In this document: positions 59,517 to 63,098 of the stretch, one piece after another
Position numbering within the stretch: the stretch's first letter is position 1
Layout of the letters: the number at the start of each line of letters is the position of its first letter
Source: Sporolactobacillus laevolacticus DSM 442
Lineage (GTDB): Bacteria; Bacillota; Bacilli; Bacillales; Sporolactobacillaceae
DNA length: 64,000 nt
Assembly (NCBI RefSeq): GCF_000497245.1
Contig: NZ_AWTC01000001.1
Span: forward strand, 180,234 to 244,233
Direction: 5' to 3'
Notes under the pieces: model-generated
Databases searched by the model: none
Told to the model about the DNA's origin: nothing
Seen by the model: only the letters and a program-made list of their open reading frames with translations
Program-made: the position numbers and the translations under genes

Positions 59517-59825
59517 TCAGGCATTGATCTTTTCAATAACGACTTTCGTAAACGGCTGCCTATGTCCTTGTTTGCGACGATAATTCTTTCTTTTCTTGAA
59601 CTTGAAGACAATGATTTTCTTGTCACGGCCCTGTTCCACTACTTTCGCAGTGACAGTCGCTCCGTCAACTGTTGGAGCACCAACCTTAACTGTTTCGCCG
59701 CCAACAAAAAGCACCTTGTCAAAAGTAACCGTGTCACCTGCTTCAGCAGCAAGCTTTTCAACAACGATCGATTTTCCTTCTTCAACCTTAAGCTGTTTGC
59801 CGCCAGTTTCGATAATTGCGTACAT
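59517..59825 (-). CDS. rplU: 50S ribosomal protein L21
   Basis: A 102-residue L21, starting [17 protein letters not shown] and ending with [18 protein letters not shown], the rRNA-binding C-terminal motif. AAAGGAGGTG lies upstream of the ATG. It heads rplU-prp-rpmA and has its own promoter and structured leader. Confidence 0.97.
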
Positions 59826-60001: not shown

Positions 60002-60031
60002 ATATTAACACAAAGCCTATTCATCTGTCAA
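60002..60031 (-). promoter_or_regulatory. sigma-A promoter of rplU
   Basis: TTGACA (complement of 60026-60031), 18 bases, then TAATAT (complement of 60002-60007). The -35 element lies inside the last codons of the RNase gene, whose stop codon is at 60021-60023. Confidence 0.78.
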
Positions 60032-61202
60032 TGAATCCTTTATTTTTCTTCAGGCGGTCGACAGCTCGATCACGAAGCCCATAGCGTTGCCTTTTCCGTG
60101 TGATTTCCACAAGCCCAAGATTGGAATAGCCATACACATGCACAGCACTTGGATCTGTTTTGGTGCTATTTTCCAATTCGAGTAATAATCTGTTTCTGTC
60201 TGATTCCTCTTTCATTCGCAGAAAGTCAATCACGATCATTCCGCCGATCTGCCTGAGTCTCAATTGCCTAGCAATTTCTCTTGCGGCTATACAATTGATT
60301 TTATAGGCTGTAGCCTCCCAGTTATTCTGAAAGAGCATTGATCCTGAATTAACATCAATAGCTGTCAGCGTTTCGGTGTATTCAATGGCTAGCGATGCTC
60401 CTGACTCCAGCGGCACAAAGGGATGCAGCGCGGCCTGATAGATGGGTTCGAGATGAAGTGCAATGAATGGATTTTCATTATTTTTGATGCGAATGTCCGT
60501 ATGCTCGGGAAGCTCGTCCTCGTTCAGATCAAAATTAGCAACTATTGAGCACGTTGAGGGAAAATGATTTTCATTCAAAATCGCAGAGATGAAGGAAAAT
60601 GGCCGGAGGATGCGTTTCGGCGACGTTTCGCACTCTGCCTGCTGCCTCATTGAGTTCCAAATTTTTTTCAACCTGGAAAATTCCTCATAGAGTGCATCAA
60701 CATCTTGATCCTCTGCATATGTGCGAATGATTGCACCTTCTCCTGCTGAACACCATCCGGACACCTTTGTTTTCAAACGTTCACCGCGTCCTTCCGCTAT
60801 TCGTTTCGATACAGCAACATAGGCGCTCTTTGGCAAAAAAACGATGCTTTTTCCTGTAATCTGCACATGTTCTGTAAGCTCCGCTTCTTTATGATCTCGC
60901 GCTTCTTTATCGACTTGGACAAGCCGGAGCTCACCTGCCTGTGGTGCACAATCCGAAACGTATTTATGGCTGGGCAGAAAACCGCTTCGACCATTACCCA
61001 GATCCATAAACCAGCCGACCTGGCCCAATCGATTGTCCAAGACCTTACCAAGGTAGAGATCACCAACGCGAATGTCTCTTGAGTCTGATTGGAAGTAAAA
61101 AGAAACGACTTTCTGATTTTCCATAAGAGCGGCACGTACTCCTTCCGCCTCTCTTTCCATGACTAGCGTTACTTTTTCATCGGACACAACATCACCCGCC
61201 AT
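60021..61202 (-). CDS. rng: ribonuclease E/G family protein, without zinc-link
   Basis: A 393-residue RNase G-like endonuclease. An S1 domain is near residues 35-110 (GDLYLGKVLDNRLGQVGWFMDLG). Catalytic aspartates are seen in LTAIDVNSGS and MIVIDFLRMK, and LVEITRKRQR marks the end of the DNase I-like domain. The protein stops about 20 residues later with no CPxC zinc-link, the element that holds RNase E/G subunits together. I start at ATG 61202, seven bases after GGGGAG; the longer frame would overlap spoIVFB. B. subtilis has no RNase E/G. Confidence 0.88.
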   Translation of the reverse strand: MAGDVVSDEKVTLVMEREAEGVRAALMENQKVVSFYFQSDSRDIRVGDLYLGKVLDNRLGQVGWFMDLGNGRSGFLPSHKYVSDCAPQAGELRLVQVDKEARDHKEAELTEHVQITGKSIVFLPKSAYVAVSKRIAEGRGERLKTKVSGWCSAGEGAIIRTYAEDQDVDALYEEFSRLKKIWNSMRQQAECETSPKRILRPFSFISAILNENHFPSTCSIVANFDLNEDELPEHTDIRIKNNENPFIALHLEPIYQAALHPFVPLESGASLAIEYTETLTAIDVNSGSMLFQNNWEATAYKINCIAAREIARQLRLRQIGGMIVIDFLRMKEESDRNRLLLELENSTKTDPSAVHVYGYSNLGLVEITRKRQRYGLRDRAVDRLKKNKGFIDR

Positions 61203-61260: not shown

Positions 61261-62103
61261 TCACTGGTAATCGCTGATATTATTTCCTTTACACTGGCCT
61301 TTAAAATAAGCATCGGCGAGTGATTTGCCATCGATATCGGGCTTCTTTGCTCCTCTTATATGGATGTGATGCTCCGCATTCTTATAAAACATTGAAAACA
61401 CATCGGTTAATGAAGCTTCCTTTGGAACCGAAAGATTTTTCAACCTGGCATATCTTTTCTTTGTGCTCGAAAGCGTCAGCAGAAAACGAAGGAAACGGAG
61501 CGGGAGCAAACGTCTTTCTTTATAGATAGCGAAAAGAATGAATGAAATGATAATCCAAAGATTAGCTGAAAATGGATAATGCCACAATGCGAGGGTACTG
61601 AAAGCAAGCAAAGCCGCAATTGAGAAATAAAGTGCTCTTTTATAAGCCTGTTTAAATGGATACACGACTTCTAAAAAAACATGCATCAGCCTCCCTCCAT
61701 CCAAAGGCCATATGGGCAGCAGGTTAAACAGGAGTAATGCACTATTCTGGCTCAAAAAGATCTGATGTTGTGCCGCGCCCCAGAATGGAAAAGCCAGAAA
61801 TCCATACGAAAGCAGCGGCAGCCAGATATTCTGCAGCGGACCGGCAATCAGAACAAGACATTCCTCATGAAACGGATGTTCTTCATGTTCATCCAATTTA
61901 GCAACTCCGCCGAAAGGAAGCAACTCAATTTCCGTCACTTCCCAGCCAAACCAGTGAGCTGTAAAGGCATGTCCAAGTTCATGAATCAAGACAATCACAA
62001 AAGCGATTACCGTCTCCCACAGATGTCCGGTCAATGTTCCTGCCGCAATGACAAGCCAGAAAATCGGATGGATTCTGATTTTAGAAAGCAGCAGTCTAGT
62101 CAA
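61261..62103 (-). CDS. spoIVFB: SpoIVFB site-2 intramembrane metalloprotease
   Basis: A 280-residue polytopic protease that removes the pro-sequence of SigK in the mother-cell membrane around the forespore. The zinc motif is HELGH at residues 41-45 in a transmembrane segment, with the third ligand in NLLPIWPLDGGRL near 135. A C-terminal CBS-like domain (about 215-280) binds ATP in relatives. The TTG start overlaps the spoIVFA stop by 8 bases, with AGGTG upstream. The substrate gene sigK is at 5.3 kb. Confidence 0.93.
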   Translation of the reverse strand: MTRLLLSKIRIHPIFWLVIAAGTLTGHLWETVIAFVIVLIHELGHAFTAHWFGWEVTEIELLPFGGVAKLDEHEEHPFHEECLVLIAGPLQNIWLPLLSYGFLAFPFWGAAQHQIFLSQNSALLLFNLLPIWPLDGGRLMHVFLEVVYPFKQAYKRALYFSIAALLAFSTLALWHYPFSANLWIIISFILFAIYKERRLLPLRFLRFLLTLSSTKKRYARLKNLSVPKEASLTDVFSMFYKNAEHHIHIRGAKKPDIDGKSLADAYFKGQCKGNNISDYQ

Positions 62104-62887
62104 AGGACATCACCTGTATGGGATCGATAAATTTTTCACCTTTTTTCAGCGCAAAGTAGAACGTTCCTTTTTTGTCTTTTCCAGAGGTAATGCCGATCTT
62201 CTGTCCTTTTTTCACCTCCTGATACACTTTTACGTTAGCCTTATCAAGCTTCCCGTACCATGATTCATCGCTGTCCTTGTGTTGGATAACAACGGTTTCG
62301 CCGATATTCTTCTTTTTGCCGACAAAAACAACAAGACCATCTTTGACTGCCCGAACTTCAGAGTGTGATGAAGTCTCGACGGTTACCCCTTTCGTAGTAT
62401 TGCTATATGGAGACTTCACCTCACCGATAACCGGTTCAGCAAAGGACGAAGAATTCGTACGATTTGTACTGATCGAACGACCGCCATCTGCTGATTTCGA
62501 TGTATTGTTGGAAAAGCTGGGCAGAAAACTTATTGGATCTCCCAAATTCTTTTCATACCAATTAGAAACAGCCGCAAATTGGAATTCCTGCGTCATCGCT
62601 GTCTTAATCGAATTTTTCACCGCGTGAAAATGATCACCAGTACTCGTATTAATCAGATAGGTTGAGCCGACGAGCAAAGCAGAGACAAGACATTGAACAA
62701 AGAAACGGCGTGATCGGTGAATAGGCGGGTGCTGCCCCTCATCCGTATGTTCCCAGTAAGGATATGGATCACGCCGATTGCTCGTTTCTCTGTATTTCGG
62801 ATATGACTTGGGTGGTGCCTGCAGCATCATTAGTTTTCTCTTTTTTCGTTCTAAATGTCTCCTTTTATAATCCGTAACGTCTTTCAT
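62096..62887 (-). CDS. spoIVFA: SpoIVFA, regulator of SpoIVFB (M23 domain)
   Basis: A 263-residue protein with a basic N-terminus, one transmembrane segment (about residues 60-80) and a C-terminal M23/LytM-like domain (GVTVETSSHSEVRAVKDGLVVFVG, VIQHKDSDESWYGKL). The domain lacks the zinc ligands of active M23 peptidases. SpoIVFA holds BofA and SpoIVFB in an inhibited complex until SpoIVB cleaves it. I start at ATG 62887 with AGGA 8 bases upstream. Confidence 0.88.
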   Translation of the reverse strand: MKDVTDYKRRHLERKKRKLMMLQAPPKSYPKYRETSNRRDPYPYWEHTDEGQHPPIHRSRRFFVQCLVSALLVGSTYLINTSTGDHFHAVKNSIKTAMTQEFQFAAVSNWYEKNLGDPISFLPSFSNNTSKSADGGRSISTNRTNSSSFAEPVIGEVKSPYSNTTKGVTVETSSHSEVRAVKDGLVVFVGKKKNIGETVVIQHKDSDESWYGKLDKANVKVYQEVKKGQKIGITSGKDKKGTFYFALKKGEKFIDPIQVMSFD

Positions 62888-63098
62888 GTTCGGCTTCCTT
62901 TCCACCTTGTCCTTTTTTCTGATAAGGTTTCAATAAATGGATAGATTGATGGGTTAAAATCTGCAGGTAGCTTGGACATTGAAACAAGCTTCTATGAACA
63001 CTCTATGCGCGTATCATATAAAATATGAACATACAAAAAGCGACCATCACTCGAGAGTTTCTCGAACAATGGCCGCTATTCGCGGTTTTATTTATTTT

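Follow-up and report, generated by a model that had tools for sequence, protein, structure and literature searches.

The window, a 64,000-nucleotide stretch of the Sporolactobacillus laevolacticus DSM 442 genome, carries on its minus strand the gene order minD (TIGR01968), spoIVFA-like, spoIVFB-like, rng, rplU, prp, rpmA, spo0B (SPOB domains) and obg. The names spoIVFA and spoIVFB are presumed from synteny. The features around rng, in the direction of the minus strand, are:

63039–63077, minus strand: terminator-like hairpin between minD and spoIVFA, 18 pairs followed by a T run
63000–63028, minus strand: sigma-E-like promoter before spoIVFA, TCATATT-14-CATAGAGT, agreeing at 14 of 15 positions
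62096–62905, minus strand: spoIVFA-like gene with an M23 domain (PF01551, 4e-19), first gene of the presumed operon
61261–62103, minus strand: gene of a spoIVFB-like M50 protease (PF02163, 3.6e-21), upstream of rng
60021–61202, minus strand: rng, a short RNase E/G of 393 aa, assigned by PF10150, residue mapping and an AlphaFold2 model
60024–60092, minus strand: basic C-terminal tail of rng, 23 residues with a net charge of +6, in place of the lead-in to the Zn-link
60002–60031, minus strand: sigma-A-like promoter of rplU, TTGACA-18-TAATAT, with its -35 box inside the last rng codons
59891–59965, minus strand: ribosomal protein L21 leader RNA (RF00559, 51.7 bits)
59517–59825, minus strand: rplU, ribosomal protein L21 (TIGR00061, 4.4e-39)

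The open frame that contains rng (61331–60021, minus strand) is 436 residues long, and its residues 158–415 match PF10150 with an E value of 1.1e-62 and 212 bits against a cut-off of 25.5, which places the protein in the RNase_E_G domain family; the genome has no other PF10150 match. The likely start is the ATG at 61202, preceded at a gap of 7 nt by a Shine-Dalgarno-like GGGGAG stretch, which gives 393 residues. In a phmmer search against the PDB, residues 56–417 of the 436-residue frame align to E. coli RNase E (E 3e-34). An AlphaFold2 model, for which the window protein together with 41 relatives served as input, has a mean pLDDT of 87.9 and superimposes on 2bx2_L with a Z score of 35.1 and an rmsd of 3.6 over 379 residues, reaching E. 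coli residue 414 (Foldseek E 1.1e-33); the many structure matches that covered the S1 part alone were set aside. The archaeal FAU-1/RNase W structures (8wo8, 8rza) share the S1 and 5'-sensor-like part (Z 18.2 and 17.4 over 153–154 residues), but their alignment stops short of the DNase I catalytic part.

The protein comprises RNase H-like, S1, 5'-sensor and DNase I subdomains, a retained core that corresponds approximately to E. coli RNase E residues 1–395. As an earlier reading of the DNA from its sequence only had stated, the catalytic residues are all present: E. coli Asp303, Asn305 and Asp346 map to Asp283, Asn285 and Asp326. The pocket for the 5'-monophosphate is likewise in place (Val128, Arg169 and Thr170 map to Val121, Arg160 and Thr161), and Phe65, Phe75 and Lys105 are retained as the equivalents of E. 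coli Phe57, Phe67 and Lys112. The PF10150 match stops 21 residues short of the C-terminus, in agreement with the estimate in the same reading of about 20 residues between catalytic domain and stop. Two NCBIfam models score below their cut-offs: the subfamily domain TIGR00757 at 232.7 against 325.95 bits, with the match reaching position 391 of the 415 in the profile, and the E. coli-type RNase G equivalog NF008689 at 174.6 against 594 bits.

No CxxC pair, and hence no CPxCxGxG Zn-link, follows the core of the window protein, and 67 residues lie past the Asp346 equivalent, compared with medians of 62 for the 22 family rows and 151 for the 69 full-length rows from this order. It follows that both the Zn-link and the entire small domain, which provides the tetramer interface, are absent, the protein stopping before that domain. 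The sequence-only reading was right that the CPxC pair is missing, but understated the loss, as the small domain is gone too. In the AlphaFold2 model the basic C-terminal tail contains a helix at residues 376–391 at low confidence, and the end of the tail overlaps the rplU promoter.

Sporolactobacillaceae are spore-forming, lactic-acid-making bacteria; NCBI places the genus Sporolactobacillus in this family within the order Caryophanales, and the family and order groups counted here follow the genome collection. PF10150 matched in all 15 genomes of the genus and in 22 of 26 of the family. All 22 family copies are short and have no CxxC pair, and they come from 7 of the 10 family genera sampled, so that the short form is a feature of the clade and not a recent loss, the two options between which the earlier reading had wished to decide by alignment with relatives. 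Across the order, where PF10150 matched in 260 of 299 genomes, the frames listed outside the window's family are at least 466 aa long (lengths taken from the best rows of the order search and two fully listed sets), with the exception of one short form of 393 aa (L067, genome G032), ten genomes of one other genus with 384–419 aa (f20/g29; L081, L115–L123), two proteins with the Zn-link only (L059 and L108, 422 and 435 aa), a fragment at the edge of a contig (G127), a split frame (G153) and a fragment with a weak match (G039). The 125 aligned rows, two of them from E. coli, fall into 71 full-length (FULL), 33 short (SHORT), 19 long without Zn-link (LONG_noZn) and 2 Zn-link-only proteins. As the Zn-link is missing in all 33 SHORT and 19 LONG_noZn rows, it is not universal in the RNase E/G family.

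Similar short proteins occur elsewhere. An alignment-based scan of contigs from many phyla, for which a single-protein query had given no match, was evaluated for its 80 best named loci: the C-terminal domain was found by profile in 66 of these and was absent in 14, of which 11 stop directly after the core without a Zn-link. These 11 are three from Sporolactobacillus (S. kofuensis, Sporolactobacillus sp. STSJ-5 and S. vineae), all five loci titled Bipolaricaulota/Acetothermia (L148, L174, L190, L194, L196), and single alphaproteobacterial (L170), Clostridium (L173) and Selenomonadales (L172, within 75 nt of a contig end) bins; the remaining three loci without the C-terminal domain have the Zn-link only (L142, L144) or are long (L177). 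In the phylum, PF10150 matched in 351 of 398 genomes, and nine proteins besides that of the window are shorter than 450 aa among the matches listed; eight of the nine were inspected, and six stop just past the Zn-link and two at contig ends. Six of 14 control genomes have a match; B. subtilis is a control without one, consistent with the earlier statement that it lacks the family.

Two further arrangements were seen. Zn-link-only forms without the small domain (L144, L208–L213, L142, L059, L108) come from several Bacillota families and an Elusimicrobia bin, and are candidates for Zn-linked dimers incapable of forming tetramers. Conversely, the C-terminal domain is present without Zn-link cysteines in L053, L054, L060, L062, L068, L071, L072, L074–L079, L085, L094, L102, L103, L112 and L126. 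The genus f36/g45 is mixed, with Zn-link cysteines in L105 and L111 and none in L094 and L103.

The surroundings of rng are alike in all classes: of 123 loci, 116 have rplU on the downstream side and 109 have spoIVFB on the upstream side. Three of the seven loci without rplU have less than 240 nt of sequence downstream, and the other four (L026, L037, L052, L057) have about 1.2 kb with no rplU there. The distance from the rng stop to rplU has a median of 178 nt in 32 SHORT and 158 nt in 63 FULL loci, and thus shows no increase that would match the missing domains in length. Since full-length relatives share the order spoIVFB-rng-rplU, the short form arose in place. Its simplest origin is probably an internal deletion, which would have removed the missing domains and left the stop at the rplU promoter.

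At this junction, the -35 box TTGACA translates as Ile-Asp-Arg directly before the rng stop. A promoter scan by itself performed no better than chance (5 sites against 5.5 expected from shuffles), so the promoter-like site is identified by its conserved place and not by the scan. The rng stop is a TGA within the -35 box in 9 of 21 family loci, 17 of 68 FULL loci and 29 of 121 loci overall, and in none of the 11 SHORT loci outside the family. In 13 of the 19 long forms without Zn-link the -35 box begins 14 nt before the rng stop; with the box inside the coding end, the recurrent C-terminal peptide of these forms, (V/I)D(K/N)LF, probably represents the promoter sequence in translation. The L21 leader was detected in 17 of 18 loci drawn from all classes, the miss being L008. 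Adjacency, leader and -35 overlap also accompany full-length enzymes and are therefore older than the shortening. The sequence-only reading had the rplU promoter begin at once after rng; the site does indeed start inside the last rng codons, but this is not special to the short form.

We inferred a mixture-model tree of the core from 68 chosen rows of the 125, with the Zn-link and small-domain columns excluded. On this tree the SHORT state takes three changes, two of which are forced by well-supported branches. L067 clusters with L044, a full-length form from the same family (98/93), and the short forms of Sporolactobacillaceae and f20/g29 cluster with a single protein that has only the Zn-link (93/87; the branch is not starred). 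FastTree unites 32 short rows, all but L067, at 0.926. The Sporolactobacillaceae and f20/g29 short forms may accordingly have a common origin, or may have been drawn together in the tree. For the Zn-link cysteines, presence versus absence (the latter in SHORT or LONG_noZn) takes eight changes.

Selection was assessed by dN/dS (Nei-Gojobori) over the open frame, which takes in some codons upstream of the likely start. Family pairs gave 0.202 (L002/L003), 0.162 (L004/L009), 0.199 (L020/L021) and 0.098 (L001/L011, with synonymous sites nearly saturated at a dS of 2.96); the 0.80 of L013/L015 says little, because this pair differs at 4 of 1401 alignment columns. Four f20/g29 pairs lie at 0.14–0.20, four full-length pairs at 0.037–0.207 and one long pair without Zn-link at 0.075, and the four usable family values (0.098–0.202) are not below those of the full-length pairs. 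Within the family the equivalents of Asp303, Asp346 and Arg169 are present in 22 of 22 rows, Asn305 in 21 (Asp in L021) and Thr170 in 18, the other four having serine. The f20/g29 short forms have Asp for Asn305 in 10 of 10 rows and Phe67 in 0 of 10, which makes activity of these enzymes less sure. Replacement of Asn305 by Asp is also scattered outside f20/g29, in L074, L076–L078, L080 and L021. Only 27 of the 43 positions conserved in full forms are equally conserved in the family. A position-by-position comparison of full and short forms identified five conserved positions that are altered in most family rows and no clear compensating change.

Before the gene is taken at face value, its shortness has to be weighed against error and decay. 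A C-terminal part hidden by a frameshift, a missed base or a split gene has, in our judgment, next to no chance of being the explanation. A C-terminal-domain profile, run in three frames over as much as 900 nt beyond the end of rng at 33 short loci, found no remnant (best E 2.4; at L004 just 8 nt of contig lie downstream of rng), and in a control the profile, built without the long forms that lack the Zn-link, detects 18 of 19 of these with E below 0.01. For a detached small domain, a profile search of 25 family genomes gave nothing better than E 0.028 and no match in the window genome. The weak matches in 13 of the 25 (E 0.028–7) are mostly stretches of about 20 residues, many in frames of 374–390 aa that we take to resemble DnaJ zinc fingers, and the best of them (genome G006) sits in a frame that, named by eye, resembles glutamyl-tRNA synthetase. 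A detached C-terminal-domain gene was rejected at the sensitivity of this search, and a recent truncation or missed base was rejected given the agreement of 22 family genomes and the lack of a downstream remnant. The earlier argument that a frameshifted tail would not fit is borne out to this extent, yet the same tightness occurs with full forms. Decay, that is, a half-lost redundant RNase heading for the full loss seen in B. subtilis and some family members, is unlikely rather than negligible: four of the 26 family genomes lack a PF10150 match, the window genome also encodes RNase Y (a single match above the cut-off) and RNase J (two such matches), and the Zn-link or small domain is gone in other lineages. 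Two of 22 family copies are interrupted, both in the N-terminal half; L015 is one C short in a run of five Cs, possibly a sequencing error, and L019 comes from a 75% complete assembly. Elsewhere in the order, the fragment in G039 (L082, f15; 2.8-Mb genome) matches RNase E/G weakly (E 8.5e-4, which does not reach the cut-off), and with its four in-frame TGA codons is perhaps a decayed rng. Against decay stand the dN/dS values of 0.10–0.20 in the four family pairs and 0.14–0.20 in the four f20/g29 pairs, the invariance of the Asp303, Asp346 and Arg169 equivalents, and the spread of the short form over most of the family genera sampled.

Two other alternatives concern what the short enzyme does and how it is assembled. 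The sequence-only reading had suggested specialization for processing the adjoining rplU (L21) transcript, an idea for which the promoter-like site and L21 leader directly 3' of rng speak. However, rplU follows 63 of 69 FULL as well as 32 of 33 SHORT loci, and the leader is found with all classes; we rejected this specialization, which now appears very improbable, since adjacency, leader and -35 overlap are all common to full-length loci. With regard to assembly, a paper on E. coli RNase E states that small domains join dimers into tetramers, that the DNase I/DNase I contact dominates the dimer interface, and that tetramers no longer form and activity drops substantially once the Zn-binding motif is mutated or deleted (PMC2631609). 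As the DNase I contact dominates, a dimer may survive without the Zn-link; the enzyme may also be a monomer or be assembled otherwise, as the sequence-only reading had suggested. In the cleavage model outlined in a 2013 review, one protomer captures the 5' end and the other cuts (PMC3997798). A true monomer would combine 5'-monophosphate sensing and cutting in one protomer by a changed mechanism, a sub-question of the reading that we prefer. Two of the known inter-subunit contacts, Zn-link and small domain, are missing while the Arg169/Thr170 equivalents are retained, which speaks for a monomer; the dimer-dominating DNase I subdomain, on the other hand, is about as conserved in the family as in full forms (mean pairwise identity 0.50 in 20 family rows vs 0.53 in 69 full forms). 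On balance we find a true monomer possible, with the chances somewhat against it.

Based on these comparisons, we propose as the likely reading that rng of the window encodes a functional minimal RNase E/G, with the full catalytic and 5'-sensing core but neither Zn-link nor small domain. The short form is shared by all 22 family copies, occupies the ancestral gene order and retains its catalytic and 5'-sensor residues under purifying selection. The enzyme would cut single-stranded RNA by the same Mg-dependent chemistry with a preference for 5'-monophosphates; an E. coli-type tetramer would be impossible, and a dimer, if any, would form via the DNase I/DNase I surface alone. It shares with the catalytic half of E. 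coli RNase E (2bx2, 2c0b) the RNase H-like, S1, 5'-sensor and DNase I fold, the catalytic Asp303/Asn305/Asp346 and the sensor residues Arg169/Thr170, but lacks the Zn-link, the small domain and the scaffold half. E. coli RNase G (489 aa) likewise consists of the RNase E/G core without a degradosome scaffold, but keeps both Zn-link cysteines and has 142 residues past the Asp346 equivalent. Full-length Rne/Rng of the same order (for example L023, a 505-aa frame) have the same locus, gene order and core, and carry about 90 extra residues with CPxCxGxG and the small domain. A counterpart in design is a minimal peptide engineered from E. coli RNase E, which is said to keep the core functions in the absence of the domain needed for tetramers (Caruthers et al. 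2006). That peptide, presumably ending at residue 395, is artificial, whereas the window form is natural and clade-wide.

The setting of the gene hints at when it may be expressed. The rng start lies 58 nt behind spoIVFB, which makes co-transcription likely, and the sigma-E-like promoter before spoIVFA suggests expression of rng during sporulation. Scored with the sigma-E consensus, the site of the window was equalled by 0 of 500 mononucleotide shuffles; in 8 of 19 family loci the site was reached by at most 10 of 500 shuffles, and in the other 11 it was not so distinct. The terminator-like hairpin came from a scan that found 4 against 3.7 expected. The spoIVFA and spoIVFB genes of B. subtilis are under sigma-E control (PMC517825). 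As the third gene behind such a promoter (spoIVFA-spoIVFB-rng), and beside RNase Y and two RNase J, the enzyme would be an accessory endonuclease, perhaps acting in the sporulating mother cell. A broader conjecture, to which we give rather low odds, is that minimal 5'-sensing RNase E/G evolved repeatedly and that the Sporolactobacillus enzyme, driven by sigma-E from the spoIVFA-spoIVFB operon, is a mother-cell sporulation RNase. If true, 5'-sensing needs no Zn-linked dimer.

Shortness of RNase E/G as such is already known: the 2013 review describes Bacilli RNase E/G as often under 450 aa (PMC3997798), a statement that fits some lineages only, since most listed frames in the sampled order have at least 466 aa. 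The Zn-link cysteines are described as highly conserved in RNase E and retained in the RNase G homologues compared (PMC9841416), and the literature searched, mostly without subscription papers, yielded no description of a naturally missing Zn-link. The ancestral gene order corrects the idea of a tie to rplU. With neither Zn-link nor small domain, this naturally occurring and selected enzyme allows the question of which parts activity and 5'-sensing require to be put directly, and the graded series of forms (with the Zn-link only, the small domain only, or neither) supplies ready comparison proteins. With the cutting core kept and the Zn clip and end domain lost, the short RNase E/G offers a natural test of what the E. 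coli-type assembly is for.
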